Source: Owenia fusiformis
Lineage: Eukaryota; Annelida; Polychaeta; Sabellida; Oweniidae
Assembly: GCA_903813345.2 (NCBI GenBank)
Contig: CAIIXF020000006.1
Span: 33,455,524 to 33,519,523 of the forward strand
Direction: 5' to 3'
Length of the DNA stretch: 64,000 nucleotides
Of the stretch, positions 1 to 45,800 are shown in pieces; the first letter of the stretch is position 1; each line of letters starts with the position of its first letter. Below the pieces are notes generated by a model. That model searched no databases, was not told the DNA's origin, and saw only the letters and a program-made list of their open reading frames with translations. The position numbers were made by a program, and so were the translations under genes.

Positions 1-1874
1 CCTTCGACTCTTTCTCAAGATTTGGGCCCTATATTGTACCCCTACCTTATCATCCTGGTGTCTCGTTTATAACACCACAATGCGAAGTTACTTAAGCATG
101 ATAAAAAGTGTATGTGTGGATGGGGGGGAGATTTGACCCCTCACTTGTATACTCAACCGGCCAAGTATTAACAGTACAAAAGGGAGAAAAAATCCATCAG
201 GTCCATAATTCTACACGTTCACGTACAAGTTTAAAAAACGTGTATCTTAAATTTATTTAGAACTACGCCTTTGTACCAGCGACACACTTTCACATGTGCG
301 TCTTTACAATGAAACACAATAACGAAAATTGCAACTTTAGGATCTTTAAAAAAGTTGCAATATCCTTCCTGGTTAGAATAGGTTTCCACGTACAACTAAA
401 AACACTATATAAAATAACTATCTATACACCATCAATGCAAATATATGCTTTCTTCCATTCGGATACTCATAGCATCTTTCTGTTTCACCTGAAACACAGG
501 GCTGAGAAGAAATGAGATGACATGGTTTATCATGATGGCTTTCTTAGAGAATACGGGATGTCACATTCATTGCAACACACCTTGCAACAATGTCTTATGA
601 GGGTAATTTCTTATATTGAGAAGTTTATCATCTATTGAAATTAAATACTTGTAGCTACAAAAGGCGAATTTGTTTCAGCAGTCCTAGCTCGACATATTAT
701 AAAGAAAACAATATTTACAACATGGTATTCTTAGTAGACTGTTCAATTTGGAATTCGAAGCTTAGCCAAACATCAGCTTTCTAAAGTGCAAATTCACATT
801 AACAAATTAAGATAAGATCCACAATATGTTATCAAATGGTTAAATGCGCAAAATGTGTAGATATGTTTTCCTTAATAATGTGTGAGGAGGCCTTTCAGGC
901 AATTTTTCGAAAACCTAGTGAGAACAAGTTTGGTGTAGAGGGGAAGGGGATATCTCCCACCTCGGTCTCTCTAATGCCTAGGCCACATATGCGCCAGACA
1001 CCGGCCGATGAGTAGTCATCGGCCCATTTCTAAATCAGTTTCGACAAAAATTATGTAATTCGGCAATTTTAGTTACAAAACATGAAGGTTCATTATGTAA
1101 AATTTTGAAGACTATTGGTGTATATTTTTTAACAAAATACCAGCACCAGTCCTGTTACTTTTGGAACACCCTGTACCCTCTGGAGGTGGTAAAAAAACTA
1201 AAATGAATCCGATATACACATAATCACAAGTGAATCATCTATTAATACATCACTCTCATTTTAATAATGATGATTTTGATTTAATAATGATGATTTTGAT
1301 TTATATCAAAAGTGTTCAATAACGCAAATGCGAGTAGGTAGTTACCAGTTTCACCACCAGGTGGCTCGCTCGGGTCAGATAGCATGGCGGGTATAGTAGA
1401 AAGTTCCCTTTAACTTTAATTACATAGGTTTTAGTGGTTCAATTTTCATATAGCCCTTATGTATCGAATAGTTATGCAAATTAAAGTATGTCCAGTAAAA
1501 GAAAATGTCCAATACAAGAAAAGATATTTCACTTTTTGTGATTTTGTAATATGGGGTCTATGGGGAATCAACCCGAACTAGAAGTCACATTTTCAAAAAA
1601 TATTAAATTTTTTTGTTGATAAACAATTTTCGAAACCATATTTTTAGATGAATTTTTACATGTAGATTTCAAATATGACATCACTTTGACTGAATTTTGA
1701 ATATTTAATGATGTTATTTTGTGGAGCCCATGTCTTGCCACATCACGCGTGGAAATGACTTTGACAAACCTTGGACATCTTTCTTTCAGTCCATTGACTC
1801 TAAAATAACAAGAATTTGCATTGTAGGAGCGTAAAATTGGTTATTTGAATGCCGCCTCTTGTATTTCTCATCTG
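1..1874. other. AT-rich non-coding stretch, no gene recognised
   Basis: I find no convincing exon here on either strand. The N-terminal nucleoside-hydrolase exon, expected upstream of the gene at 9852, should carry an Asp-rich DTDxGxDDA-type motif, and I could not find it. A 20-bp unit is duplicated in tandem near 1262-1301. Around 1170 the text ttttggaacaccctgta resembles the end of a mariner-like transposon, but I see no partner end. Confidence 0.5.
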
Positions 1875-2078
1875 CAGGCCTGTCAACTTGGGAACACCTA
1901 ACATGAGTGACTTGGAAATGTTGAACACCTCCCCTCAAAATGTGGACACCTTGGTCCAAATCTGAACACCCTGATCCAAATTTTGAACACCTTGGTTTAA
2001 ATTTTATTACATCTTGCCAAATTTTGAACACCTCAAATTTTTCGCACTCGCTACGCTCGCGTTTCAAACATCCATCAA

Positions 2079-2110
<32 letters not shown>

Positions 2111-2352
2111 CGTACGTACGAAAAATTTCGAACGGAATGCGTGACATATACGTAATTCGTGTGAAAAGTCCGAACGTAATGCGTGCATTTTTTGCCGTCG
2201 TTCGTATTTTTGCTATGTAGACGATCTTTTTTAGAAAAGTAAAATGCGTATTTGCGTGACATTTTCTGTCATGCAAAAATAACTGGCGTGACTTCAAATT
2301 CTTCAGCAAATGCGTGACAAATACGCAAATTGCGGGACAGTTGACAGGCCTG
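1875..2352. mobile_element. Non-autonomous TIR element, copy 1, with 6-bp target duplication
   Basis: The ends are perfect 14-bp inverted repeats, CAGGCCTGTCAACT and its complement. The hexamer CATCTG lies immediately outside each end (1869-1874 and 2353-2358). The interior holds a run of about 30 G at 2081-2110 and repeated 'gcgtgacatatacg'-like motifs, with no transposase. A second copy lies at 37415-37900 in the opposite orientation. The CAG...CTG ends resemble hAT elements, but hAT normally makes 8-bp duplications, so the superfamily is uncertain. Confidence 0.8.
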
Positions 2353-2394
2353 CATCTGCCTCTTGTACACAAAGTTACTGAAACCAACTGCTAA

Positions 2395-2930
2395 GGTGGA
2401 TTTTTTGTTCCAGGTATTACATTTGTGCAGGGTAACACTAATGTGGATTCTTTGTTCCAGGTATTGCATGTGTGCAGGGTAACACTAATGTGGATTCTTT
2501 GTTCCAGGTATTACATGTGTGCAGGGTAACACTTATGTGGATTTTTTGTTCCAGGTATTACATGTGTGCAGGATAACACTAATGTGGATTCTTTGTTCCA
2601 GGTATTACATGTGTGCAGGGTAACACTAATGTGGATTCTTTGTTCCAGGTATTACATGTGTGCAGGGTAACACTAATGTGGATTCTTTGTTCCAGGTATT
2701 ACATGTGTGCAGGGTAACACTTATGTGGATTTTTTGTTCCAGGTATTACATGTGTGCAGGGTAACACTAATGTGGATTCTTTGTTCCAGGTATTACATGT
2801 GTGCAGGGTAACATTAATGTGGGTTCTTTGTTCCAGGTATTGCGTGTGTGCAGGGTAACACTAATGTGGATTCTTTGTTCAAGGTATTACATGTGTGCAG
2901 GGTAACATTAATGTGGGTTCTTTGTTCCAG
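2395..2930 (+). repeat. 47-bp minisatellite made of splice acceptor plus exon start (left part)
   Basis: About 11 near-identical 47-bp units. Each consists of tctttgttccag, which looks like a pyrimidine tract with AG acceptor, followed by 35 nt that translate as ITCVQGNTNVD, the same residues that begin the nucleoside hydrolase exon at 9852. The array is interrupted after 2930 by a LINE insertion and resumes at 9619. Units differ by a few substitutions (aacactaat/aacattaat, gattc/gattt/ggttc). Confidence 0.9.
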
Positions 2931-3507
2931 ATAAGAACTTACATAACATTCAAAAATGTCTTTGAAAGAGAGGGTTATTTAGATATACAAAATAAAAATT
3001 ACAGACAAGCAATAAGTAGATTTAGGCTTAGTTCACACAAATTACATATAGAAATTGGTCGTCATTTGAAGCCTAAGCCAAGACCTTTTGATGAACGTTT
3101 ATGTAATATGTGTGGTATTTTAGAAGATGAACAACACTTTATCATGGTGTGCAAGAAAAATACAACAGAGAGAAAACTTTTGTTTGACACCCTTACGCAA
3201 TTTAATTTTGTAGGAAGTCCTAACTTTATTTACAAAAAGCTTTTGTCTCATAAAAATTCTTATGTAATTTTACACCTAGCAAAGTTCATTTATCATTCAT
3301 TCAAAAAACTGGATTAATATTGTAACAATGATACATCACACTGATGTTTTAAATTCCGTCATGTTGTATCTGTATTTTACAATTATCTCATTTTGTATTT
3401 TACATTTTGTGATGCTGTAATTGTATTTTACAACTTTGTATATTTTCTACGAAGTAGTTAGTTTAGTCTTAGTTTAATTTTGTATATTGTAGTTTGTAGT
3501 GACTTAA
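2931..3507 (+). pseudogene. LINE (non-LTR retrotransposon) 3' fragment: ORF C-terminus and UTR
   Basis: The frame ending at the stop at 3315-3317 encodes the C-terminal tail of a non-LTR retrotransposon polyprotein. It has a segment reading RFRLSSHKLHIEIGRH and a zinc-knuckle-like CNMCGILEDEQHFIMVC (Cys-x2-Cys-x8-His-x4-Cys). The 5' part is missing, as expected for a 5'-truncated LINE copy. Its start at 2931 directly abuts a minisatellite acceptor. The 3' UTR continues to 3507, is interrupted by the TTAA-flanked element, and resumes at 9567. Confidence 0.75.
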
Positions 3508-4046
3508 GGTACGTTCACACCAACGGCGAATGCCACGCTTTAAATCGGCGAGCAAAGCGCCGTCATTTTTGTCATTTTTCTTCATACCAACGGCGCTTTG
3601 ATGGCGCTTTAAAGCGGCTTGTAAAGCGGCACCAAAGCTTGATTAAAGCGTCGGGGTCGTAATAGGTCGTAGAAAAGCTCAGAGTAAAGCGGGATATTCG
3701 GCAAGAGCGCCAAAAAATGTTAAAATTTTTAAAAATTTTGGTCGCTCTGTTACGAATCGATTAAGCGCCGAGAGCGTATCAAAGCTTAACAAACCGTAAC
3801 AAAGCTCAGAAAAGCTTGACCCAAAGCGTAGGAAAGCTTAACATAGCTCTGATTGGTTCCCCACGCTATGACCAGGCTTTGTTACGCTTGAAATTACGCT
3901 TTGATAAGCTTTTATAAGCATTATTACGCTTTGATGCAATTATGACGCTTTAAATCAGGCTGTGATACGATTGCCAAGCTCTGTTGTGCATTGTTACGCT
4001 CTGTTAAGCTCTGTCACGCATTGGAAAATGTCGAGATAGCCGATTT

Positions 4047-4361
4047 CATGGCGCTTTTGATCCAATGACTATATAAAGATGCAGTAGATCCATAAAACCA
4101 TTGCATCTTTGACTCAGAACACGATGGCAGAACAACAAGATCCAGAAATTCCAGATGGACCAGAGCATGACCTATCTGAATAAGACATGATGTTTGACGC
4201 ACGGCGTGAAAGAGCGTAAGAGAGCATGAGGAAGCTTGTCAAGCGTAACAAAGTCTAACAAAGCGTTTCAATTCTTGATGTAAGCGTCTCAATTTGTTGG
4301 AAAGCTTGAGAGTCCTTCATGAAAGCGTAACAAAGGGTGTCAGATATTGATGAAAGCGTCT
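4047..4361 (+). repeat. Promoter-like segment of the TIR transposon, first copy (second at 8693-9003)
   Basis: This roughly 310-bp segment recurs in direct orientation at 8693-9003. It holds a TATA-like ctatataaag followed about 50 bp later by an ATG with a 19-codon ORF. The arrangement looks like the promoter and N-terminal end of a deleted transposase gene. Confidence 0.6.
4124..4183 (+). pseudogene. 19-codon ORF behind a TATA box in the TIR element (possible transposase N-terminus)
   Basis: The ORF encodes the acidic peptide MAEQQDPEIPDGPEHDLSE and then stops. A TATA-like sequence lies at about 4069-4077. The same promoter and ORF recur at 8769-8828. I do not recognise the peptide. A deletion-derived remnant of the parent transposase is the simplest reading and is an inference. 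Confidence 0.4.
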
Positions 4362-4566
4362 GACCTCGTGTCAGATCTTCATGCCAGATCATAACAAATC
4401 TTGAGACATCTTAACGAAGCGTGTAAAGTGGTAACATACCGTGAAGAGACTGGGGTCCCCGCTTTGAACCAAGCTCTGTTAAGCTTTCCTACGCTTTGGG
4501 TCAAGCTTTGCTGAGCTTTGTTACGGTTTTTTAAGCTTTGATACACTCTCGGCGCTTTAATCAATT
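4362..4566 (+). repeat. ~200-bp repeat unit of the TIR element (copy 1; others at 8014-9230)
   Basis: The unit starts cagcgtctgacctcgtgtc, passes through actggggtccccgc and aagctctgttaagctttcc, and ends tcggcgctttaatcaatt. Complete or partial copies recur at 8014-8240, 8246-8392, 8393-8502, 8503-8693 and 9004-9230. Confidence 0.75.
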
Positions 4567-4793
4567 CTTAAATTCCCAATAATGCCAAATACGAAAAATA
4601 GACGCAAAAAACTACAAGTAGTTGGTCAAATAGTTTATTGTACCTAACTAAACTAAAACAATAAACTACAATAGAAGTTACATAATATTATAATGCGTTA
4701 ATTAAAAGATGTTACGTAATAATACAATAGAAAATACATAACAGTACATTGCATTAAAGTAGTTACATAATAGCATATAATATTATGACCTCC
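4567..4793 (-). repeat. Ngaro terminal repeat B2
   Basis: 227 bp, nearly identical to 4991-5217 and 7701-7927 in direct orientation. The single difference I saw is atacg versus acacg near the start. Confidence 0.8.
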
Positions 4794-4990
4794 CAGTCCA
4801 GTACACCCTAATTCAATTAAGGGGAGGGTGGGAGGGAGCATTAGCTAAAAATATTACATGTTTAGTGCTTGGCTGCAGTAGCTGAAGTGATTAGATGATC
4901 TAGACATAATTAAAAGTTCATGACCTTTGCATGAACTGCAGAACCAGATGGCAACCTCTATAATTTAAATCTATTTCAACTGAAATTAAA
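4794..4990 (-). repeat. Ngaro repeat A2
   Basis: 155 bp of it (4836-4990) recurs at 7546-7700, immediately upstream of the truncated RT. The outer 42 bp (4794-4835), including a G-rich ggggagggtgggagg, is present only here. Confidence 0.75.
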
Positions 4991-5217
4991 CTTAAATTCC
5001 CAATAATGCCAAACACGAAAAATAGACGCAAAAAACTACAAGTAGTTGGTCAAATAGTTTATTGTACCTAACTAAACTAAAACAATAAACTACAATAGAA
5101 GTTACATAATATTATAATGCGTTAATTAAAAGATGTTACGTAATAATACAATAGAAAATACATAACAGTACATTGCATTAAAGTAGTTACATAATAGCAT
5201 ATAATATTATGACCTCC
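4991..5217 (-). repeat. Ngaro repeat B1
   Basis: Follows the tyrosine recombinase stop directly on the minus strand. It is a direct copy of 4567-4793. Confidence 0.8.
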
Positions 5218-5233
5218 GAACCCAAACTTGATG

Positions 5234-6160
5234 TTAAGTAGAAGTAGTAGAAGGTAGGTTAGTTGAAAAAGATTTTGCCATCTCTACTTTTGAAGCTACA
5301 GGTAATTCAAGATAAACCTTATATGCGTCTGACTTCCAGTCACCTAGAATCTGGATGACATTAGGGGGAAGGCCTCTTTGTAGAGCCCAAGATGCGCCTC
5401 CCCTCCTAAAGGAATGAGGTGAAAAACAAGTACGGTCATAACCTGCCTTAGCTAAGCATGTGCCCAGGAGAGATGAGAACAGGGAGGGGGGAAAAGGTTT
5501 ACCTCTGGGCAACGTAAAGAGGGGGTAGTCTGGGCTGGAGGGGAAAGTAATAGCAAGGGCAGATAGTAGTGCAGATACTGGGCAAAGGGGGTGGCCTTTG
5601 ATCTCAGTAAGCGGCACTTGCAAGATTCTCTCTCCAGACTGAATAGTCTTTGACCATTTCACATTAAGTAAGACCCCCCAGGGAAAAAATGTTACATCTC
5701 TCCTGCACAAATGTTTGCTCTTGTCAAACTCTGAAGGTAACACATTAGATCTCCTAAACAGGCCATAGAAAGCAACTAAACAGACACCCCAGAAAACCAC
5801 ATGAAGGGGATCATCCATATTTAGTTGCTTCCTAATGTCCAGCAAATGAGTTGGAGTAATAGCAGATTTCCTAATTGGTTTCCTGCCTAGGGTCTTTGTG
5901 AGACCCAAAATGATGGTGTCCAGCCTATAATTGTTATTTAATGGGTTTGCATAACCACTTTCCAAGTGGAGTAGCCTGACAACATTAAGATACAGTTTCA
6001 CTGATGCTGGAGTAATGACCCCAGCTAATGAAGCAACATAGCGTTCCAGGTGTAATTGATTAACTGGTACTGGGTTGTAACCCATATTGTTACAAAATAC
6101 TAGATATTTTTGGAGCTGGGCTGCATATGTTGATCTGGTAGAGGGGGTGTAGCAATTCAT
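5234..6160 (-). CDS. Tyrosine recombinase of the Ngaro-like retrotransposon
   Basis: 308 residues from the ATG at 6160, which overlaps the RT stop in an ATGA arrangement. The open frame extends 9 codons further upstream without another ATG. The enzyme class inserts a circular DNA copy of the element by site-specific strand exchange through a tyrosine nucleophile. An N-terminal SAM-like domain comes first (STRSTYAAQLQKYLVFCN). The catalytic domain contains the first Arg in GLFRRSNVL, the H-x-x-R box in SPHSFRRGGASWALQRG, and the tyrosine in GDWKSDAYKVYLELP near the C-terminus. The frame is intact from start to stop, so the insertion is young or under little decay. The last 20 or so codons are duplicated at 7928-7995. 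Confidence 0.9.
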   Translation of the reverse strand: MNCYTPSTRSTYAAQLQKYLVFCNNMGYNPVPVNQLHLERYVASLAGVITPASVKLYLNVVRLLHLESGYANPLNNNYRLDTIILGLTKTLGRKPIRKSAITPTHLLDIRKQLNMDDPLHVVFWGVCLVAFYGLFRRSNVLPSEFDKSKHLCRRDVTFFPWGVLLNVKWSKTIQSGERILQVPLTEIKGHPLCPVSALLSALAITFPSSPDYPLFTLPRGKPFPPSLFSSLLGTCLAKAGYDRTCFSPHSFRRGGASWALQRGLPPNVIQILGDWKSDAYKVYLELPVASKVEMAKSFSTNLPSTTST

Positions 6161-7551
6161 GCGTAGTGTAGCGATTGTGTTATCCAATTCTTCTTCCAGC
6201 TCAGCCAGTTGCGGACCTGCGGCAGAATGGAAAACAGAGAATTAAAACTCATGTGTGGTATTAAGTCCATAACAGACATTCCTGAACAAGGGAAGCGGCC
6301 AGGGTATAACAAGGCTTCCAAGGATAGGAGGGCATGGGGTTCATGAAGTCTGGAGATTGTATCTGCCATCACATTATTTAGTCCCTTGACATGGTGTGCT
6401 CTTAGATCAAAGTTGTAAGTCACTGATATCCAGAACATATGTCTTAGTATATCCATAATAACAGGATGTCGAGACCTCCCATAGTTGATCACTGCCATTG
6501 CAACAGAAGAATCGGTTGCAAGTTGAACCTTCTTATTTGACCATGTGTGCCCCCATCTCAATACAGAGAAGTATGCAGAGAGTATCTCCTTATAATTGAT
6601 ATGGTAATCCTTAAGAGAAGGGGTATCACGATGGAAATTTATATATGCCCAATCTCCATCATAGTATAAGCCTGCTCCAGTATTGCAAGCATCCAGCTCG
6701 ACAGTCACAACTGGATTGTTGTCCATTATTAAAGATTTTCCATGGAATGTGTCTATGTACTTAATCCACCAGTCTATGTCTTTATAGAATTGAGTCCCTA
6801 GCATGTATTTGTGTTTGCTGCGTTTGAGTGATCGTATGGTATCCAGGATCCGTTGGAGGAAATGCCTACCCCCTTTGACGACCTGGGTTGCCCAATGAAG
6901 TTTACCAGCCAATGATTCAAGCTGGGATCTAGCGGCGCGTTTTTTGCTTGAAAATTCGATGAGTAATGCTTTCAAGCTATTTAGATTTTCCTCTGGCAAT
7001 GTCAGTTGCATTTTTATAGTATCAATGTTTATGCCTAAGAAAGTTAGAACCTGTGTAGGTCCTTCCACCTTTGACCAGTTTATGCTCAGACCAAGGGACC
7101 TGATCAATCCAATCAATGTGTCCCTTGCTTCTTGACACTCCTTATATGTAGAGTAAACTAGGCAGAAATCGTCGAGATAAACAACAATGTTGTGAAATCC
7201 TCTGTTGATCATCATACGCTTAACAGATTGCGTAAGTCTGTGGAATATTTCTGGAGCTTTCCGTGCTCCAAACATGAGTCTCTTGTCTATCATATATGTA
7301 TATGAATTGTCACCTCGAAATTTCCACTTAAGGCCAGTATACAGATAATCACTGGGAGATATCGGCACTGATCTATACGCTTCTGATAGGTCCACCTTAC
7401 ATAAAAAGTATCCATGCTTAACTAAAGCAGTAACTTCCGATAGAGATTGATACTTAAAACTGTTTTTTGTAGCATAGTCATTTAATCCATTTCCATGCGG
7501 CATAGAACAATCATGAATCAGCCTAATCTTTTGATACTTAAAACTGAGCAT
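6157..7551 (-). CDS. Reverse transcriptase/RNase H of the Ngaro-like retrotransposon, N-terminally truncated
   Basis: 464 residues from the first ATG at 7551, which lies in the A repeat and is probably not the native start. The RT fingers are cut off just before RLIHDCSMPHGNGLNDYA. The palm follows with KVDLSEAYRSVPISPSDY (motif A) and the YLDD box in VVYLDDFCLV (motif C). The RNase H domain has VELDACNTGAG, the helix KEILSAYFSVLRW, LATDSSVAMAVIN and HHVKGLNNVMADTISR. This RT-RH order without an integrase, followed by a tyrosine recombinase, is diagnostic of the DIRS order. The protein would lack about the first 100 residues of a normal RT, so this copy is not autonomous. Confidence 0.9.
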   Translation of the reverse strand: MLSFKYQKIRLIHDCSMPHGNGLNDYATKNSFKYQSLSEVTALVKHGYFLCKVDLSEAYRSVPISPSDYLYTGLKWKFRGDNSYTYMIDKRLMFGARKAPEIFHRLTQSVKRMMINRGFHNIVVYLDDFCLVYSTYKECQEARDTLIGLIRSLGLSINWSKVEGPTQVLTFLGINIDTIKMQLTLPEENLNSLKALLIEFSSKKRAARSQLESLAGKLHWATQVVKGGRHFLQRILDTIRSLKRSKHKYMLGTQFYKDIDWWIKYIDTFHGKSLIMDNNPVVTVELDACNTGAGLYYDGDWAYINFHRDTPSLKDYHINYKEILSAYFSVLRWGHTWSNKKVQLATDSSVAMAVINYGRSRHPVIMDILRHMFWISVTYNFDLRAHHVKGLNNVMADTISRLHEPHALLSLEALLYPGRFPCSGMSVMDLIPHMSFNSLFSILPQVRNWLSWKKNWITQSLHYA

Positions 7552-7995
7552 TAGCTAAAAATATTACATGTTTAGTGCTTGGCTGCAGTAGCTGAAGTGA
7601 TTAGATGATCTAGACATAATTAAAAGTTCATGACCTTTGCATGAACTGCAGAACCAGATGGCAACCTCTATAATTTAAATCTATTTCAACTGAAATTAAA
7701 CTTAAATTCCCAATAATGCCAAATACGAAAAATAGACGCAAAAAACTACAAGTAGTTGGTCAAATAGTTTATTGTACCTAACTAAACTAAAACAATAAAC
7801 TACAATAGAAGTTACATAATATTATAATGCGTTAATTAAAAGATGTTACGTAATAATACAATAGAAAATACATAACAGTACATTGCATTAAAGTAGTTAC
7901 ATAATAGCATATAATATTATGACCTCCGAACCCAAACTTGATGTTAAGTAGAAGTAGTAGAAGGTAGGTTAGTTGAAAAAGATTTTGCCATCTCT
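7546..7995 (-). repeat. 450-bp direct repeat of 4836-5285 flanking the Ngaro coding region
   Basis: It contains partial A (7546-7700), B (7701-7927) and the recombinase C-terminal codons plus spacer (7928-7995) in the same order as 4836-5285. It looks LTR-like, but it includes recombinase coding sequence. It is best explained by a fusion of two element copies or by an opened circle. Confidence 0.8.
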
Positions 7996-8013
7996 TGGAG
8001 CCCGAACAGGGAC
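7996..8013 (+). other. Primer-binding-site-like 18-mer matching the 3' end of tRNA-Lys
   Basis: The sequence TGGAGCCCGAACAGGGAC differs at one base from the complement of the tRNA-Lys(UUU) 3' end used as a primer-binding site by many LTR retroelements. It lies exactly at the junction between the Ngaro repeat (ending 7995) and the host TIR transposon (resuming at 8014). No LTR is recognisable beside it. Confidence 0.5.
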
Positions 8014-9230
8014 AGCGTCTGACCTCGTGTCAGATCTTCATGCCAGATCATAACAAATCTTGAGACATCTTAACGAAGCGTGTAAAGTGGTAACATACCG
8101 TGAAGAGACTGGGGTCCCCGCTTTGAACCAAGCTCTGTTAAGCTTTCCTACGCTTTGGGTCAAGCTTTGCTGAGCTTTGTTACGGTTTTTTAAGCTTTGA
8201 TACACTCTCGGCGCTTTAATCAATTCGTAACAGAACGCCCAAAATAGCGTGTAAAGTGGTAACATACCGTGAAGAGACTGGGGTCCCCGCTTTGAACCAA
8301 GCTCTGTTAAGCTTTCCTACGCTTTGGGTCAAGCTTTGCTGAGCTTTGTTACGGTTTTTTTAAGCTTTGATACACTCTCGGCGCTTTAATCAAGCTCTGT
8401 TAAGCTTTCCTACGCTTTGGGTCAAGCTTTGCTGAGCTTTGTTACGGTTTTTTAAGCTTTGATACACTCTCGGCGCTTTAATCAATTCGTAACAGAACGC
8501 CCATGCCAGATCATAACAAATCTTGAGACATCTTAACGAAGCGTGTAAAGTGGTAACATACCGTGAAGAGACTGGGGTCCCCGCTTTGAACCAAGCTCTG
8601 TTAAGCTTTCCTACGCTTTGGGTCAAGCTTTGCTGAGCTTTGTTACGGTTTTTTAAGCTTTGATACACTCTCGGCGCTTTAATCAATTCGTAATGGCGCT
8701 TTTGATCCAATGACTATATAAAGATGCAGTAGATCCATAAAACCATTGCATCTTTGACTCAGAACACGATGGCAGAACAACAAGATCCAGAAATTCCAGA
8801 TGGACCAGAGCATGACCTATCTGAATAAGACATGATGTTTGACGCACGGCGTGAAAGAGCGTAAGAGAGCATGAGGAAGCTTGTCAAGCGTAACAAAGTC
8901 TAACAAAGCGTTTCAATTCTTGATGTAAGCGTCTCAATTTGTTGGAAAGCTTGAGAGTCCTTCATGAAAGCGTAACAAAGGGTGTCAGATATTGATGAAA
9001 GCGTCTGACCTCGTGTCAGATCTTCATGCCAGATCATAACAAATCTTGAGACATCTTAACGAAGCGTGTAAAGTGGTAACATACCGTGAAGAGACTGGGG
9101 TCCCCGCTTTGAACCAAGCTCTGTTAAGCTTTCCTACGCTTTGGGTCAAGCTTTGCTGAGCTTTGTTACGGTTTTTTAAGCTTTGATACACTCTCGGCGC
9201 TTTAATCAATTCGTAACAGAACGCCCAAAA
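8014..9230 (+). repeat. Tandem and partial copies of TIR-element internal units
   Basis: Five complete or partial copies of the ~200-bp unit (8014-8240, 8246-8392, 8393-8502, 8503-8693, 9004-9230), with the promoter/mini-ORF segment at 8693-9003. The short minus-strand ORFs here sharing VYQSLKNRNKAQQSLTQS are translations of this repeat and not genes. Confidence 0.75.
8769..8828 (+). pseudogene. Second copy of the 19-codon ORF behind a TATA box
   Basis: Identical in translation to 4124-4183, with the same upstream ctatataaag. Confidence 0.4.
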
Positions 9231-9566
9231 TTTTTAAACAGTTTAAACTTTTTTGGCGCTCTTGCCGAATATCCCGCTTTACTCCGAATTTTTCTACGAC
9301 CTATTACGACCCCGACGCTTTAATCAAGCTTTGTTACGCTTTGGTGCCGCTTTACAAGCCGCTTTGAAGCGCCATCAAAGCGCTGTTTGAGCGAACGCTT
9401 AAACAGTTTAAATTTTTTAGCGCTCTTGCCGAACATCCCGCTTTACTCCCGAGCTTTTCTACGACCTATTACGACCCCGACGCTTTAATCAAGCTTTGTT
9501 ACACTTTGGTGCCGCTTTACAAGCCTCTTTAAAGCGCCATCAAAGCGCCGTTGGTGTGAACGTAGC

Positions 9567-9618
9567 TTAATATGTCATTGCAATGACATCAGAGAGTCAA
9601 TAAAAGATATATATATAT
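9567..9618 (+). pseudogene. LINE 3' end with TA-rich tail
   Basis: After TTAA, the interrupted LINE resumes and ends gagtcaataaaag followed by (at)n, directly joined to the minisatellite. The same gagtcaataaaagatatata end appears at about 61257-61282, which supports it being a LINE 3' terminus. Confidence 0.6.
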
Positions 9619-9851
9619 ATTACATGTGTGCAGGGTAACACTTATGTGGATTTTTTGTTCCAGGTATTGCATGTGTGCAGGGTAACATTAATGTTGGTTC
9701 TTTGTTCCAGGTATTACATGTGTGCAGGGTAACACTAATGTGGATTCTTTGTTCCAGGTATTACATGTGTGCAGGGTAACACTTATGTGGATTTTTTGTT
9801 CCAGGTATTACATGTGTGCAGGGTAACATTAATGTGGGTTCTTTGTTCCAG
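9619..9851 (+). repeat. 47-bp minisatellite of splice acceptor plus exon start (right part)
   Basis: Five units continuing the array at 2395-2930. The final unit runs without a break into the genuine coding exon at 9852. In the last copy the exon continues as GTGGATCAGGTC, where the other copies turn back into the pyrimidine tract after GTGGAT. Confidence 0.9.
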
Positions 9852-9937
9852 GTATTACGTGTGTACAGGGTAACACTAAGGTGGATCAGGTCTGCAGGAA
9901 TGTCTTCAGGTTACTTAAAGTTTGCAAACGCCTTGAT
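9852..9937 (+). CDS. Nucleoside hydrolase exon a
   Basis: Acceptor tctttgttccag, donor GATgtaagt. Starts with two bases completing a codon, then 28 codons beginning ITCVQGNTKVDQVCRN. It is the last unit of the minisatellite. Confidence 0.85.
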
Positions 9938-12900
9938 GTAAGTCCATTTGATTCTTGTTAGGTTTTTATTTTAATAGGTAGCTGATTAAATCACATCTTC
10001 CCTATCCCTTCTTGTGTTGCCATCAGAAAATCTGAAAAAATGTTTATTTATATAAAACATATTTTCAACAACTATGAGTTACTGCTACTTAAATAATGTA
10101 CCTTTAACGATCGTATAATGTACTTTCTTTATAACTTTATATTATTATGCCACCAACAAAAAGTGGTGACATATTGGAATTGTTCTTTGTTTTTTCTGAC
10201 AGCGGTTTGCGATCGGCAGTTGGTGGTTGGTGGTTGGTACTGTCTGTAACAAATTCTTACAACTTCCAATATCTTAACAAATACTGTTTAGACTGACTTT
10301 AATTTTTTTCAAAATCATCAACAAGTTATAAGAAGTTCAAATCTGACTTTAGACTTAAGATTTGACCTTCAATGACCTTTTCAAGGTCAAAAAAGGTCAA
10401 CAAGGTCTTTTTAACTTGAAATCGACCAAATTTTTTTAAAGATCATGTACAAGTTCAAATGATTAATCTGACTATAGATTTGAGATTTGAACTTCAATGA
10501 CCTTCTCAAGGTAAAAAAAATTTGACCTTTTCCAGGTCAAAAAAAGATAAAAACTGTATTTTTTCAACTTGCTTTAAATTGACCATTTTTTCAAAATCAT
10601 CTACGAGTTCTCAGAAGTTCCAATATTTATTCAACGAGCATCAAATTGACCAAATCTTTTTCAAAATCATCCAAATTCTCTGAAATTCAGACCTGACTTA
10701 ATATGAACTCATTAAATTGTGAGCAACTTGGTGATGACATTTTTATTCAACGAGCATCAAATTGACCAAATCTTTTTCAAAATCATCCAAATTCTCTGAA
10801 ATTCAGACCTGACTTAATATGAACTCATTAAATTGTGAGCAACTTGGTGATGACATTTTGTCATGTTATTGCCTTGTATTAATTGAGGATGGATACATTT
10901 GATAAGTCACCCTAAAAGATAAAATCATATCTTTAATACGTAGGTCATCATTTAAGAGAGAATCATATCCTTAATATTAGGCATCATTGAATATGAATGT
11001 ATATTATGTGTGTCTTAAATATACTGCTACCACACCTTTCATGCAGAAACAGGCTACTTAACTGATCAGTTCACTATTCCAGATTCCAGTGTATCAGGGG
11101 GTGTCTACTTCTCTTGTGGGAATAAATGCAGGCCCATCATTTTACCATGGAAACGATGGATTTGGAGATGCACCTGAGGAAGAGCCACAAGATTATTCTG
11201 CCCTTGTTCAGAAAGAACATGCTGTCAATACCATAGTGAGACTTGTGAATGGAAATCCAGGTACTTTGGTTGCCATATACTCGATTTGTCTTTAATTTGA
11301 TGAACGATTTATGCAAATGCCAATATGTCCAATATCCAAAAAAGTCAAATTAAGTAACGCCAAGTTAAAAGAACAATACAGTAAATAGATGGATTTTTAG
11401 CATTTAGTAATGTTAAAAGAAAGCTTCCTCTGCACTTGAATGAGACATAATCATTTGCCTTACCCAGTCTAAACATGACTCATGTGGGAATCAAACCTAG
11501 AACCCTTAGATCCAAAGTCTGATGCTCTACCAACTGAACTATAAAGGCTTAAGCCACTTCAGCTGTGCTGTAGAAGCAACTTGCTATCCAGGTTCGTTAC
11601 AGGCTAAATGCACAAACCATATACATCTATTGACAGTCACTAATTGGAATAATGGTATAATGAACCTCTGTAAGTGGAACACTGTTTTGAGGTTCCAAAA
11701 GTGTTCCACTTACACAGATTTTACTGTTCTTTAACACTAGTATTTATTTTCAGGTAAGCTAACTTTGATTGGATTGGGACCCCTGACAAATATTGCAATG
11801 GCAATCAGATTGGATCCTGATTTGGGTAAAAAGCTCAAAGACTGTTACATCATGGGTGGAAATTATCAAGGTATGTTTTCTTATACAGATGTAATAAATT
11901 TTAAAAGCATTAATTTTTTACTTTGATTCTGTTCCAACTTCAAAAAAATATGAATTTCCTATTATTAAGGAAGGGAAAGTTGGTTCAATAAATTTATGCA
12001 CACAAGTCTAAAGCTTAGATTGATGTCTCCTATGATGACCATACCAATATATGCCTTTTGGTGTCCTTGCATTTATCATGATGTACAGTGCGTATCAAAA
12101 AAACAGATTGTTATCTCGGAAAAGCACAAAACCATTGATAACAGCATTGATTTCATTCAATGCACCATAAAGCCATGTGTCTCCTCTTTACAATGATATA
12201 TCCTTTTCATTCAATGTACCAAAAAGCCAAATTACTCCTCTTTGCAATGGAATATCAATCATTTACAGGGAGTCATGACTGGCCGAATGATCATTAATTT
12301 TGCAAAGTGGGACAAAATTCAGCTCGGACCTAAGTTTTAACATTGCAAAAGTCAGTACAAGGAGCATAGGGGCTATTGGAAGAAGGTGTGACAGGTGTGG
12401 CATAGACAGTAACGTGTTCATACTCATACTCTTGCAAGAATACATCCTATACCCCTCCAAATTGCCACCATTTCCTTGCACATAAAGATGCGCTCATCTG
12501 TCCACGTCATGCATGGTTCAGCCCTGAGTCATCTGTGGGTTAAAGCAAAGAAAAGCAGCCCATGGGCAAATCTTTCTCGAGGTTTTGCAATATCTGGTGG
12601 ACGAATTGTGAGCACAAATCCTCCTCAGATAGCTCCAAAAGAAAAAGTCACAACAATTCAAGTCAGGGGAACGTCCATTGGCACTTAGCCCTTGTACTGA
12701 TTTTTGCAATATCTAAAACTTGGAGCAGAGCGGATTTTGACCCACCGTGCAAATGGAAGGGTTTCTCACCCAACCATTACCAAATGTGAATGAATGACAT
12801 ACCATTGCAAAGAGGAGAGACGTGGCTTTATGTTACATTGAATTAAATTGATGTAGTCATCACTAGTTTTGTGATTTTACGAGATAACTACTTGTTGCGT

Positions 12901-22411: not shown

Positions 22412-22600
22412 ATGACAACTGTCATATATAATACTTTTGCAAGTATCATCAACTTCAAGCGACGGAAACGTTGGATTTACTTCATAATTCTTGTGATGTT
22501 AGTGTACATGCTGTTTTATTGGACATCTGATGGTGAACCAGTTTTCTCATTGGAAAGCCGGGTTAAATCTGGTGTTAAGTGCAAGAGTAAAGTTTATGAG
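22412..22600 (+). CDS. METTL24: METTL24-like exon 1
   Basis: ATG at 22412 preceded by aaataaag, donor GAGgtaaga, phase 0. Holds the basic KRRKR and the single transmembrane helix. Confidence 0.8.
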
Positions 22601-25600
22601 GTAAGAATTTATAGATAACATATATTGAAAGCCCATGATAACATTTAGACTGATTCAGCTTCTCTCAACATTGCTTGTAGAAATTAAGATTGCTATTTGC
22701 ATTAACACTTGCAGACTTATGAGTTGAATGCTTAGATTCTTAGATGTCCTTAATTGACACCCTCTTAACACATAGGAAAGACAAATGATGTTGAAGTGGT
22801 ATGTATTTGTAAAATATATGTACCCAAGATAATGAGTAGCAGTGTTATCTTGATTGTGTGTTTTCCAGATTAGTGAGATATTAGATGACAGTGCTTTCCT
22901 GCTGGAACGTCATTCTAAACAAGATTTGGAGGATCTTTTCTTTGAGTGGGTAATTTTGTAATTGTTATTATTCTACAGTTGGCACAAAACAATGCAATCC
23001 ACAATTGAAATAACTTTGTTGAAAACACAAGGGTGTTCTTTATCTTATCTATCTAATTCTAGGCTCAGTTTCAAATCTAAAAACTGGGGAAGGGGGGAGG
23101 GGGGTCGCCCCCAACGCCCTCCCCCTTCCAATGCCAATACTGTGTATGTTTGGACAATTTTATATTTTTCTCATAATGTATTTTGGAAAATTTATAATTT
23201 TTCTCATATTAAATTATATTCTGACATTTCAAACATGTTTTTAATTGTTCCAGTTTCAGCAATTGTATGATGGTATTGCCTATTTTGATCCAAAACTAGC
23301 ATATTAAACAGCTCAGTTTGCATGGAGACTTCCTAAATGTTTTAGTGGTCTTAAATTTCAGTTTCCTTGTAACAGTCAAAGTGCAGTGTCGTGACAAGGC
23401 CCATTATGGACCTAGATTAGACTTTCTAAACATATTAATGATCTTAAATTTCAGTTTCCTTGTAACAGTCAAAGTACAATGTCGTGACCAGGCCCATTAT
23501 GGACCTAGATTAGACTTTCTAAACATATTAGTGATCTTAAATTTCAGTTTCCTTGTAACAGTCAAAGTGCAGTGTCGTGACAAGGCCCATTATGGACCTA
23601 GATTAGACCTTCTAAACATATTAGTGATCTTAAATTTCAGTTTCCTTGTAACAGTCAAAGTACAATGTCGTGACAAGGCCCATTATGGACCTAGATTAGA
23701 CTTTCTAAACATATTAATGATCTTAAATTTCAGTTTCCTTGTAACAGTCAAAGAACAATGTCGTGACCAGGCCCATTATGGACCTAGATTAGACTTTCTA
23801 AACATATTAGTGATCTTAAATTTCAGTTTCCTTGTAACAGTCAAAGTGCAGTGTCGTGACCAGGCCCATTATGGACCTAGATTAGACCTTCTAAACATAT
23901 TAGTGATCTTAAATTTCAGTTTCCTTGTAACAGTCAAAGTGCAGTGTCGTGACAAGGCCCATTATGGACCTAGATTAGACCTTCTAAACATATTAGTGAT
24001 CTTAAATTTCAGTTTCCTTGTAACAGTCAAAGTACAATGTCGTGACCAGGCCCATTATGGACCTAGATTAGACCTTCTAAACATATTAGTGATCTTAAAT
24101 TTCAGTTTCCTTGTAACAGTCAAAGTACAATGTCGTGACAAGGCCCATTATGGACCTAGATTAGACTTTCTAAACATATTACTGATCTTAAATTTCAGTT
24201 TCCTTGTAACAGTCAAAGTACAATGTCGTGACCAGGCCCATTATGGACCTCGAGAAGATGGCGGATGGGAAGTTTGCATGGAGAATTTCTATGAGATAAA
24301 GAAGCCATGTCTGATATACTCCTTTGGGTATGTGATTAATAGTGTGTTCCTATATTAGATATACATGTATCATGACTGCATATATCCAATGAACATATTC
24401 ACCCATTTGAATATTACGGCAAACCTATATTTAGACTAAAGTGTTGACTATTTTTTGTACCCCCTACACAGTAGTATGTCTAATGTATGTTGATCTTATT
24501 TCAGAATTGATCATGATTTCCGCTTTGAAAAGGACATTGAGGAAAAGTTGGGATGTGAGGTACATGCATTTGACCCAAGGTAAGTATACACTCAGGGATC
24601 TCGCCGGTTTTCTCCTAGAGGGTGCCTTACCTTAATATGACCTTGGTCAGAATATCTCTTTCATCATTTTGAAAGGGTGTAAGCAAATTTCAACATGGTT
24701 GTCTGTGACTTTTGAATTTCCAGCACCCAGTTGCATCAATGCTGGGGAGACCACGTCACCTTTAACTATTTACAGAGCAATACTATAAGGCTGTAACCTT
24801 TTACAATCTAAACCTTAGAGGTGCTAAAATCTATTCCTTCTAGTTAATCATAGGTACTGTCTTACCAATATTACAATCATAACTGCATCAATTACAATTT
24901 GAAAACTCCATTTCTCCGTTCCACGTTCTGGTCTTGAAGACCAGAAATTGAAGCTTCCATTATATTTTAGAAGCCGAGAAAATTCAATACCAGATATATA
25001 CACATTCTTACCCCAATCAATTCTAACACAGCGCTTGCATTAGGTTAGAAAGTCCCAAGGACGCAATTTTTTTAAAAAAGTGTGTCCTTTGAAAAAAAGT
25101 GTGTCCCCTATTTCTAGTCATATTTTCAGTTTTTGATTTCTTGCCGCGAATTTAAAACGGAAGTAAACATTAAGTACGGACTGAATAAATGCATGTTCGT
25201 TCATTCGACAATGAATACATTTTATTTCATGAATAACCTAATATTTGTTTCTGAATAGGAAAAACTGTGACGTGTCATGGTTTCAAATCTAAAAATAAAC
25301 AAAGTCGAAAAAATTCGAGAGAATCATGATTATTTGTAAATATTCAACATGTTGAGCCTTATTTACGATTCAAATAAAGGTGAGAGATCATAATTATTTG
25401 GTTTTGTTAGGTATCGTTGTAAACACATTGTAGTATTGACCTAAAAAAAATTTGCGTCCAAAAAACGGAAATATTTTCAATTTTTGCGTCCTCCAAATTA
25501 TTTTTGAGTCCTTAACATGTACGGAATGCCGTTAATGCAAGCCCTGCTAACATCATCCGATATATTCTCCCTAACTTACAAATGTTTTGGCTCTCTCAAA

Positions 25601-28600: not shown

Positions 28601-29812
28601 GGAATTTGCTCTTCAAGTGTAATATTAATCACTATGTCTTGTTCATTTTCAGTATGGAAGTGATTGATCATAAGTATTCATCTAATGGATGGTATCATAA
28701 CCTGGGACTGGGAGGAGAAAATGGACATATGGTAGATGGTACCTGGGAAGTTAAAACCTTGGAGCAGATTATGAAGGACTATGGCCATTATTATAGTGTA
28801 AGTACACTGTAGGGAAATCAAGGTGTCTCAGAATGAAACATGTATCATGTTTCCCCATTCTCTACAATTTCCATAGTTGAATGTGGATTCATTTCAATAA
28901 AATCTCAGTGTAAATGAGAATAGAATTAGTTATTTAATAGTGCAATCTTTTTTGTCTTTGGATGTGTATTTAAAACATTTATGACAACCCACAATTTGCA
29001 CCTTCTATAGAATTTGACTCACACTTTGGTTTCTCTAAGTTTGAAAAGAAATATCTTCTATAAATGCAAGATAGACGTCCTTGGTAAATGTAATGGCAGT
29101 TTCCACATCAACAAAGTTGCTTGCCCTTTTTCAGTATAATAAAAATGTGTGCAAACAGTATCATAAGTAGTTCTAACTAGATTCATCTGGTTAGTATCGT
29201 AAGTAATGTACATCAAAAACTTTCAATATGTACTACATAGGGTATAGTAGGGTCGGGGCCAAGTCAAACTGCTTCAGCAACAGGTTGGTCAGGGTTCTAA
29301 TGGCACTGTGGAAAATTATCTAAAATTTTCTGAGTATCCTGACGAACTGTTGACATCTTTTAGTAATGCAGGGTTTCAATGGCATATCAAATTTTTGGCC
29401 TGAAATATGCCCGATATAACCCACAGCGTATTAATATATTATCTCTTACTTTTATTTTCAGAAACCAATAGACTATCTGAAATTAGATATTGAGTTCTCT
29501 GAGTGGCTCGCACTCCCAGAAATGATTGCGAGTGGGATTCTGAGCAAAGTTCGCCAAATTGGGATGGAGGTCCACACTCCCGAAATAGACAGTTTAAAAA
29601 AGCCATATTCCAAATGCACCTGGTCGCAGAAGCAAACTGTCTGGCATATGCTTAATACATTGAAACATTTGGAGAGAGAAGGTTTCAAATTGTACTATTT
29701 TACACCAAATCAACGGATTGAGTATTTATCGAAAGTTAGCTTCAAGCGACGTTTTTGTGCTTTTCAAGTTTATTTTTTGAATACAAAGTTCCGATTCCCA
29801 GAACATGAATAG
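22412..29812 (+). CDS. METTL24: METTL24-like membrane-anchored methyltransferase, complete coding region
   Basis: Proposed join: 22412-22600, 22869-22945, 24199-24327, 24505-24579, 28653-28797, 29462-29812, giving 321 residues, close to vertebrate METTL24 in length. A short cytosolic N-terminus (KRRKR) precedes one membrane segment (WIYFIILVMLVYMLFYW), as in a type II anchor, so the catalytic part probably lies in the secretory pathway lumen. The domain shows EDGGWEVC, KKPCLIYSFG, LGCEVHAFDPS (SAM-site region), WYHNLGLGGENG, DYLKLDIEFSEWLALPEM and VRQIGMEVHTPE, the conserved order of this Rossmann methyltransferase family, whose substrate is unknown. The exon 2 donor is the least certain join. 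A polyadenylation signal AATAAA lies at 29973-29978. Confidence 0.88.
22869..22945 (+). CDS. METTL24: METTL24-like exon 2
   Basis: Acceptor tgtgttttccag; encodes ISEILDDSAFLLERHSKQ and DLEDLFF. Donor chosen as GAgtgggt (end 22945, phase 2) because it alone joins exon 3 in frame. The stronger-looking TGGgtaatt (end 22949) would give phase 0 and a frameshift. Confidence 0.65.
23318..24198 (+). repeat. 93-bp minisatellite of splice acceptor plus exon start, open in the coding frame
   Basis: Nine 93-bp units precede the genuine exon 3, which is the tenth. Each unit has cttaaatttcag (acceptor-like), then 52 nt encoding FLVTVKVQCRD(K/Q)AHYGP, then 41 nt of intron-like sequence. As 93 is divisible by three and contains no stop in this frame, the frame is open from 23318 to 24358. 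Units differ by linked changes such as gtgcag/gtacaa, aag/cag and gactttc/gaccttc. Confidence 0.92.
24199..24327 (+). CDS. METTL24: METTL24-like exon 3 (last unit of the minisatellite)
   Basis: Acceptor cttaaatttcag, donor GGgtatgt, phase 2 in and out. Encodes FLVTVKVQCRDQAHYGPR then EDGGWEVCMENF and KKPCLIYSFG. An alternative acceptor cttgtaacag 14 nt further in would need a phase-1 exon 2. Confidence 0.8.
24505..24579 (+). CDS. METTL24: METTL24-like exon 4
   Basis: Acceptor gatcttatttcag, donor CCAAGgtaagt, phase 2 in and out. Encodes IDHDFRFEKDIEEKLG and CEVHAFDP. Confidence 0.9.
24580..26242. other. METTL24-like intron 4, proximal part
   Basis: Apart from the TIR element at 25029-25546 I see no coding sequence here. 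The palindrome ttctggtcttgaagaccagaa lies near 24930. Confidence 0.5.
25029..25546. mobile_element. Non-autonomous TIR element with 6-bp target duplication
   Basis: Ends CAGCGCTTGCATTA and its near complement TAATGCAAGCCCTG, with CTAACA immediately outside both (25023-25028 and 25547-25552). The interior repeats tgtgtcc motifs and carries no ORF. It shares the CAG...CTG ends and 6-bp duplication with the elements at 1875 and 37415, although the interiors differ. Confidence 0.75.
26243..28310. repeat. 47-bp hairpin minisatellite (~43 units) in METTL24-like intron 4
   Basis: Each unit reads catgcccatggttttcatgt then cactaccacaagtggtgaca then tgctaat. ATGTCACTAC and GTGGTGACAT form a 10-bp arm pair with one mismatch around a 5-nt loop. 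Variants (gtttac, gtgttgac, ctttaccacagg, cccgcccatgg) alternate in longer-period patterns. The block ends at 28310 by running into a unique gtggtgacatattg sequence resembling the interspersed element at 10148. Confidence 0.9.
28653..28797 (+). CDS. METTL24: METTL24-like exon 5
   Basis: Acceptor gttcattttcag, donor AGTgtaagt, phase 2 in and 0 out. Encodes MEVIDHKYSSNGWYHNLGLG and TWEVKTLEQIMKDYG. Confidence 0.9.
28798..29461. other. METTL24-like intron 5
   Basis: No feature recognised beyond the splice sites. Confidence 0.5.
29462..29812 (+). CDS. METTL24: METTL24-like exon 6 (terminal)
   Basis: Acceptor cttttattttcag, phase 0, 116 codons and stop. Encodes KPIDYLKLDIEFSEWLALPE, VRQIGMEVHTPE, an Arg/Lys-rich RIEYLSKVSFKRRFCAF and the family's C-terminal YFLNTKFRF. 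Confidence 0.92.
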   Translation, partial: KPIDYLKLDIEFSEWLALPEMIASGILSKVRQIGMEVHTPEIDSLKKPYSKCTWSQKQTVWHMLNTLKHLEREGFKLYYFTPNQRIEYLSKVSFKRRFCAFQVYFLNTKFRFPEHE

Positions 29813-42800: not shown

Positions 42801-45800
42801 ACATTTAAGGCTGAAAGTTGCCATGTGTGAATACCGTTCCGGGTGGCAGGGTCCCTATATTAAAAACTATCTAAAAAACTACATAAATTATATAATTTCT
42901 CCATGAAATTAATACACAAAGTAGTTAAGTTGTTGGTCTTTATTATTGGAAAGTTTAAAGTAATTTTATCAAAAACTAACAAAATTAGAGCAGGGCGTCC
43001 AAGACTTTTGGATCACCCCTCGTACATTATACATTAGCCACTGATACAGCATTCTGTAACTTAGTTTTTACTTCTGTTATATATGCATATTACAAGTATG
43101 CTATAGCGATTGATTAAAACATAAAGAGAAGTAAAATTATCATGTTTAGCCTGTTATAGTGGGCAATTCTTAGAAGTTATTCTGTTGACTACTTCATTGT
43201 TGATCTTGGTAATACAAGCTTTTGCAAAATTAGCTTCTTACCTGGGTAGAGTGCCCTACTGATCATTCCTGGCAGAACTATGAAAAACATGGGTAGTAGT
43301 TTAAGGTACCCTGCTAATATGGCGCCACCTTTTGCATGCATCAAGTTCTTTGCTGCCAGAGCCCTCTGTACAATAACTTGGTCGCAACACCAGTACCAAA
43401 GACAGCCTGGTAGAGCAGAATTAGAAAGAATGGACATGTCTATATAAGGAAGTAATAGCTTGTATGCGTACAGTCGGGTTGTCTGCATATAAATAAACAT
43501 TTTTGTTTGCATGCACACAGACTGATAGGGCATAAAAAGAAGGTTGTTTGTATGTAATAATACTGTTGTTTGTGTGTACACAAACTGATGGGGCATGAAA
43601 AAGAAGGTTGTTTATATGTAATAATACTGTTGTTTGCATGCACACAGACTGATGGGGCATGAAAAAGAAGATTGTTTGTACATAATAATACTGTTGCTTG
43701 CATGCACACAGACTGATGGGGCATGAAAAGAAGGTTGTTTGTACATAATAATACTGTTGTTTGCATACACACAGACTGATGGGGCATGAAAAAGAAGGTT
43801 GTTTGTACATAATAATACTGTTGTTTGCATGCACACAGACTGATGGGGCATGAAAAAGAAGGTTGTTTGTACATAATAATACTGTTGTTTGCATGCACAC
43901 AGACTGATGGGGCATAACAAGAAGGTTGTTTGTACATAATAATACTGTTGTTTGCATGCACACAGACTGATGGGGCATAACAAGAAGGTTGTTTGCACAT
44001 AATAATACTGTTGTTTGCATGCACACAGACTGATGGGGCATGGAAAAGAAGGTTGTTTGTATGTAATAATACTGTTGTTTGCATGCACACAGACCGATGG
44101 GGCATGAAAAAGAAGGTTGTTTGTATGTAATGATACTGTTGTTTGTGTGTACACAAACTGATGGGGCAGGAAAAGGAAGGTTGTTTGTTTGTAATAATTA
44201 TGTTGTTTATGTGTACACAAACTGATGGGGCATGAAAAAGAAGGTTGTTTGTACATAATAATACTGTTGTTTGTGTGTACACAAACTGGTGAGGGCATGA
44301 AAAATAAGGTGTTTTGTTTGTATAAAAAGGTTTCGGGCATGTATAAAATGGCTGAATTCCATCTATAATACATTTAGCCTCATACACAGCCCTTAAACAT
44401 ATACAGAACAAGAAGATTGGAGTAGGATTTCTTGGATCTGTGCTCTGGCCTAAGATAAGGCCCTTACCTATACTGGATTGTAGTATGATTCCAGGCCATG
44501 GATTATCAGATGTGACGGGGTCTCTGAACAGATGAAAGGCATCTTTCCTTGGGGCACCACATGTCCCATTGTAAGTGGAGTTATTTTCCCCTATAGATGG
44601 CACAGCCTTTTGGTATTCTTTGATTAAACCGTCGTAGCCTCCGATTCTTACAAAACCTTATGAAAAACAAAGGTAATTTAAGAAAAGTAAAAAACAATTT
44701 AACCCCCTTAAGCCACAGATTTATGTCATATATAATAGAATACAACCATATTGAAAAATATACATGTATGAAGAAGTTCATATTTATCCTATCACTTCCA
44801 TCAAGCCCTTTAATTAAAAATACAAGTTTGGTTGTAACAATGTATGCACATGTATATAGTTACTTTTTAAGAAAGATTAAGACATTTGGATAAAGAAAAT
44901 AATGTATGACAACTTTGATTTACGCTTTAAAGTACATGTACATGTAAATGTTACTGACATCAATATAGAACACAGTGCATATTCTTAATGAAATCACCAC
45001 CAAGTAGCTTCTCAAATGTTATGAACTGTGAACAGTAAACTTTGTATAGTGTGAGCATTTAAAGAAAATCAGACAAGTGGGTTTCCTGGAATCATGATGA
45101 CAAAAAACATAACAATGATGAATGTGATAAGGATCATGTCACCATCATAACTACTACAGGGTGACCAAAAAAATTGAAACCCTCCATTTCTTCAATATTT
45201 TTCTTGAATGGAGGTTAATTGCTCTGAAAGGCACACAAAGACTTCATTCAACGTGGGATCCTATGGCAAAGTTTCAATAATCATAGTCTTATATTGATAG
45301 AGTTATGGTTGTTCCAAAATATGCTCCAAATGTCGTCCATTTCCAATGTTAGGTTTTCGGATGAATCACATTCCCTTCTTTCTGAACATGTAAACTCAAG
45401 AAATAGTGTGTTCTGGGATCACAAATTCCAGATGAAGTGCTTCAAAGGCCCCTTCATTCTGTTAAATGCACAGCTTGGGCTGCCAATTTCCAAACATGAA
45501 ATCATCAGCCCCTTTTGGTTTGAGGTTGATAATGGCAACACTGTTACTGTTAACACACAGCGCAATATTGGCATTCCCAGGGAAGTTCTAGGCAGTTGTA
45601 GAGTGACATAGAGGCTTCAATAGACAAGAACAGTGGTTCTAGAAGGATTGAGCTACTCCTCACACTTCTAATGATAGCATAGCCTGGCTCACTAGTCATT
45701 TCTATGAGAAGATTATCTCTCCTAGGACGGAGAACCCATGGTCATCCCACAGTCTTGATCTCAATGCCCCTGACTTCTATATGTAGGGTTATTTAAAGGA

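Follow-up and report, generated by a model that had tools for sequence, protein, structure and literature searches.

A minisatellite of ten acceptor sites across the intron 2–exon 3 boundary of a METTL24-like gene in the annelid Owenia fusiformis

Minisatellite-like duplications of intron–exon boundaries, termed 'mirages', have been described in amphioxus, in Adh3 and subsequently in globin genes, and have been proposed as a source of new introns (PMC3087553). In that account, haplotypes carry six and three units with AG/GT signals in many of them, unit lengths are 150–160, 157 or 10–72 bp, and RT–PCR suggests that regular splicing of the Adh3 and globin genes is undisturbed (PMC3087553). BflGb6 resembles the case presented here in that its units join the 3′ end of an intron to the 5′ portion of the exon that follows, an AG being present in many of them; edge units are also less homogenized, as they are here (PMC3087553). 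In human segmental-duplication genes, internal tandem repeats share this boundary position and either alter splicing or stay within the exon; the study counts 27 intron modifications, 66% of which also show an alternative transcript that retains the repeat, so the possibility of alternative transcripts from boundary repeats is not new (PMC2812944). Among annelids, one report places minisatellites within intron 1 of the metallothionein genes of earthworms (PMC12783039). An annelid minisatellite across an intron–exon boundary was not found in the literature that we searched, which is not proof of its absence from print. Zhuo et al. (2007), on introns from tandem arrays in human genes, reportedly tie such arrays to splice sites and intron formation, to judge by the title.

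TRF, run on the whole stretch of DNA analysed (64 kb; hereafter the window, to which coordinates refer unless a locus is named), delimits an array of period 93 bp with 9.9 copies, 96% matches and 0% indels (Table 1). Within it lie ten copies of CTTAAATTTCAG, each exactly 93 bp from the next, and the first exonic bases after these copies are at 23362, 23455, 23548, 23641, 23734, 23827, 23920, 24013, 24106 and 24199, the exonic share of each unit being 52 bp (that is, ~17 codons). Both results confirm what a first-pass annotation had described as ten 93-bp units, each with an acceptor and the start of exon 3; of the extent that it gave (23318–24358), the array itself is real and the limits need slight correction, as the array proper begins near 23326 and exon 3 occupies 24199–24327. 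With head-to-tail units of minisatellite size and a splice signal repeated across an intron–exon boundary, the array has the traits of a mirage. It differs from the amphioxus mirages, which are known from a cephalochordate and through RT–PCR, in its annelid host, exact period, ten acceptors and stop-free frame and in being known from DNA alone, and it is unlike the human boundary repeats, which lie in primate-specific paralogues, have transcript evidence and in some cases form new introns (PMC3087553 and PMC2812944). The annelid identity of the host agrees with three matches above cut-off to the erythrocruorin linker C-terminal family, an annelid family, and in view of this marker an amphioxus source, which the mirage literature had suggested, was set aside. 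GFP-family genes (present in amphioxus) and mollusc haemocyanin drew no match, both being weak negatives as control genomes drew none either, and a COX1 search detected no mitochondrial sequence. A DNA search of the 498-Mb assembly found, at its sensitivity, the array at a single locus and no second haplotype copy. The absence of that copy, together with the 96% similarity of the units, might indicate that the assembler multiplied or collapsed copies; we regard such an artefact as highly improbable, given that the total of ~0.9 kb fits inside one long read, that the units carry mixed variants with a diverged unit at the left edge, and that tandem arrays occur often in other parts of the genome.

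Table 1 Features of the METTL24-like gene and its array (window coordinates), and of a second boundary array (coordinates in sampled piece L024)
Feature	Position	Strand	Description
Exon 1, coding part	22412–22600	+	Hydrophobic N-terminal anchor WIYFIILVMLVYMLFYW; donor GTAAGA, phase 0 end
Exon 2	22869–22945	+	Donor GTGGGT, phase 2 end; matches exon-2 end in L001, L009 and L002 (L006)
Exact 14-bp copy of exon-3 AGTTTGCATGGAGA (24271–24284)	23315–23328	+	Left end of array
93-bp tandem array	23326–24250	+	Each unit: last 41 bp of intron 2, then initial 52 bp of exon 3
Nine extra copies	23362–24198	+	Each starts after a duplicated acceptor (CTTAAATTTCAG, then TTTCC...); phase as at 24199; no stop
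Authentic exon 3	24199–24327	+	129 bp; L001 and L002 share its acceptor position and phase; donor GTATGT
Exon 4	24505–24579	+	Part of joined gene model
Exon 5	28653–28797	+	Part of joined gene model
Exon 6 with stop codon	29462–29812	+	Part of joined gene model
Second boundary array	L024 9447–9836	-	Three copies; intron end + start of exon for first KH domain of Bicaudal-C

Joining the six exons through the acceptor at 24199 gives 321 residues, and a nearly identical protein (with X typed before exon 6) matches Pfam Methyltransf_22 over residues 95–243 (69.9 bits, cut-off 22.4; E = 3.3e-19), whereas exon 3 alone has no Pfam match. The family assigned in the first pass is therefore borne out at the level of Methyltransf_22; 'METTL24' is the name that we presume to fit this gene, its orthology to vertebrate METTL24 being putative. 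Pfam labels that the translated repeats received (TMEM131L, DUF5400, DUF5485, a bee-toxin model) were taken as composition artefacts.

The exon structure was assessed against paralogues in the same genome, in which an exon search returned 16 matches at E up to 1; nine loci (52.5 kb) were compared, counting L006, which is the upstream flank of L002. The METTL24-like paralogues L001 and L002 have the same domain, and their exon 3 starts at the same codon and in the same phase as in the array gene (one base and eight codons, then a conserved Cys); in L003, L004 and L005 the exon appears to begin later, in phase 0. Exon 2 ends with EDEFF plus two bases followed by gtaagt in L001 and L009, with EDAFF plus two bases followed by gtaagt in L006, and with EDLFF plus GA followed by gtgggt in the array gene. 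As the junctions match in position and phase, 22945 to 24199 is the homologous junction, and this comparison supports 22945 as the predicted end of exon 2 and 24199 as the predicted true acceptor. The donor at 22945 was preferred over TGG/gtaatt (22949, phase 0) and TTTT/gtaatt (22957, phase 2, in frame with 24199 and giving 325 residues) because its exon-2 end agrees with the paralogues. An acceptor at 24236 combined with the phase-0 donor at 22949 gives an uninterrupted 310-residue product, but was ranked below 24199, since the latter position is the one used in L001 and L002. At both of these loci the exon-3 edge is without an array, unlike that of the array gene, and across the nine paralogue-region loci (52.5 kb) none of the three arrays that passed our filter (unit of at least 20 bp, at least three copies; L003 3731–3884, L006 3165–3226 and L008 4579–4746) lies at the exon-3 edge.

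No stop interrupts the coding frame between 23300 and 24355; it ends with a stop at 24358. Given a frame open through the entire array, exon 3 might begin at 23362 and the gene might constitutively encode a repeat-containing protein; this is very unlikely, as L001 and L002 contain just the counterpart of the short exon, its acceptor matching in place and phase, and no purifying pattern is apparent among the units. Across the nine upstream units we counted 20 codon differences relative to the consensus, and the 8 that are synonymous all fall at two linked positions; counted as distinct substitutions, two are synonymous and five change the amino acid, and no coding constraint is visible in these differences. 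Exon 3 runs on unbroken solely from 24199, which places the authentic boundary at the terminal copy, beside the intact exon.

Because all ten acceptors are identical across the last 12 intronic bases, acceptor strength does not single out 24199. A weak exception is CTGAT at 24182–24186, which fits the yUnAy branch-site consensus and precedes 24199 alone (the other nine tails have GTGAT, ATGAT or GTGGT), its A lying just 13 nt away from the final G of the acceptor. When duplicated acceptors are nearly identical, the donor-proximal one can be favoured, which here would be 23362. We think that the last acceptor (24199) is mainly used; as it adjoins an exon of normal size (129 bp), the upstream units are probably mostly removed with intron 2.

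If upstream acceptors were used, joining them one by one to the rest of the gene predicts proteins of 321 + n × 31 residues, up to 600. The proposal that the array is frame-neutral proved correct, in that all ten acceptors are phase-compatible and each unit adds 31 residues without a stop, and so did the proposal that the repeats are hydrophobic, their best 19-residue window reaching 1.82 against 1.87 for the N-terminal anchor. The array might accordingly be pictured as a generator of in-frame isoforms that differ in hydrophobic segments, with array length varying among individuals. The match of the ten acceptors over 12 bp, their common phase and the predicted range of products are compatible with such a role, as is the frequency of repeat-retaining transcripts at human boundary repeats (the 66% given above; PMC2812944). 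Against it, the unit differences lack coding constraint, a single-anchor protein would probably have its topology disturbed by segments nearly as hydrophobic as the anchor, and each unit contains an AG 14 nt inside that, if used, leads to a truncated product; on balance we consider this role unlikely. That inner AG (24213 in the last copy), once suggested as an alternative acceptor, gave a truncated product with every one of the three exon-2 donors tried (94, 118 and 98 residues), and with the donor at 22945 it and its nine upstream equivalents all reach a stop after 94 residues.

Nor did we find support for the significance that had been attached to the preservation of frame. As a measure for the 13 intronic codons of a unit, the probability that random DNA stays stop-free over 13 codons in a row is 0.45 in a 150-kb sample of the genome, and 13 codons before acceptor-like tails in the right phase are open in 1044 of 2103 cases (0.50). 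Periods divisible by three occur in 23 of 46 other arrays (from the samples, the window and the paralogue loci) against a nominal chance of 1/3, some of these being coding repeats such as TPRs. The joint chance of a frame-neutral, stop-free 93-bp unit is thus about 0.15–0.25, so frame neutrality alone is not a pointer to function; together with the unconstrained unit differences, this suggests that the in-frame state of any upstream-acceptor product is most likely luck.

To place the array among those of the genome, we surveyed fifteen 10-kb pieces (150 kb) and nine more (90 kb) at round coordinates picked blind. Arrays passing the filter numbered 12 in the window, 20 in the 150 kb and 12 in the 90 kb, and one of the 32 arrays in the combined 240 kb spans an acceptor with homology support. 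This second boundary array comes from the 150-kb sample and lies at the exon for the first KH domain of Bicaudal-C (Table 1), which matches PDB 6gy4 (E = 1.2e-7) and scores 25.8 bits against Pfam KH_BICC1_1st, just below the cut-off of 27. The spacings between its three acceptors are 128 and 133 bp; the middle one leads into a shifted frame, and the first keeps the frame yet meets stop codons. The second sample (90 kb) contained no further boundary array that we recognized. Array edges were judged by eye with open frames of at least 30 residues, and Pfam was applied to nine first-sample frames and to zero second-sample frames, so further mirages may have been missed. Extrapolated roughly from the one case, the genome total would be ~2,000 boundary arrays (Poisson 95%, ~50 to 12,000). 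A larger picture, in which boundary minisatellites are common here (hundreds to thousands) and provide spare acceptors that vary among alleles, the frame-neutral ones yielding variable membrane-like inserts, seems to us quite doubtful.

Several other arrays were recorded. A 64-bp array at 43503–44314 of the window (12.8 copies) was considered as a second boundary case and not counted, because it lies inside an intron and crosses no exon edge; long open frames enter it in three minus-strand frames, and the surrounding gene, from the look of its exons, is presumably a sodium/solute (SLC5-like) transporter, one exon piece of which had no Pfam match. Two arrays with the same 47-bp unit (2391–2930 and 9618–9886) flank a recombinase-like frame (5237–6241, minus strand; Pfam matches under cut-off) and a reverse-transcriptase frame (6160–7554, minus strand; RVT_1, E = 1.1e-14), an arrangement that would fit a DIRS-like element lying within the array. 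In the sampled pieces, a 1308-residue open frame in L013 (4777–8700, minus strand), possibly a repeat protein, runs over the left edge of a 96-bp array (5083–10000; 51 copies, 94% matches); a 30-bp repeat in L028 (6378–6830, minus strand; ten copies, 98% matches) encodes PLYFMSIDRY within a 151-residue open frame; and a 210-bp array in L032 (167–9436, ~44 copies) occupies most of its 10-kb piece.

The units of the 93-bp array are recent and reshuffled. All four combinations are present at the unit site pairs 21/34 and 34/61, as exchange between units would produce; sequence has therefore passed between units, or the same sites have mutated more than once. Exon 3 itself carries the Q variant of a K/Q site, in common with units 2, 5, 6 and 8, which suggests that the array may be a source of variants for the coding sequence. 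Inner units are near-identical and the intronic tail ahead of the first acceptor (23362) differs at several sites, diverged edge units being usual for tandem arrays. At the left end lies the exact copy of AGTTTGCATGGAGA, 956 bp (that is, 9 × 93 + 119) from its counterpart in exon 3; among 2,000 random 395-bp genome pieces, none matched that part of exon 3 over at least 14 bp, the longest match being 12 bp. On one reading, the copy would be the trace of a founder duplication of 119 bp from which 26 bp were lost before the array expanded.

Such a founder would have broken the frame, and the 93-bp unit could then be a survivor of selection in a setting in which upstream acceptors are used at a low, leaky level and the boundary arrays that persist are chiefly those with in-frame leak products. 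The spacing, the improbable 14-bp match and the frame neutrality of the unit are in keeping with this, but the Bicaudal-C array has spacings of 128 and 133 bp with stop codons met from both upstream acceptors, the amphioxus units cited above are not limited to multiples of three (PMC3087553), and the chance figure given above needs no selection. We therefore hold this filtering by frame to be rather improbable.

Taking these observations together, we consider it likely that the array is a boundary minisatellite of the mirage type that arose as a mutational by-product, with upstream units mostly spliced out, an in-frame state due to luck and no selected function. A segment straddling the junction of intron 2 and exon 3 would have been tandemly duplicated and would have grown to ten units through slippage or unequal exchange with gene conversion, in a minisatellite-rich genome. 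The nine upstream units, which would sit within intron 2, would probably be mostly removed along with it, and their acceptors would be near-identical decoys that are possibly used at some level.

The array apparently adds another phylum to the known splice-site minisatellites. These elements are little studied, and the presence of two cases within one genome, one frame-neutral and the other not, means that a simple census could ask whether mis-splicing selects for frame-neutral unit lengths. Boundary arrays also matter for annotation, as gene predictors may call false repeat-rich exons at them.
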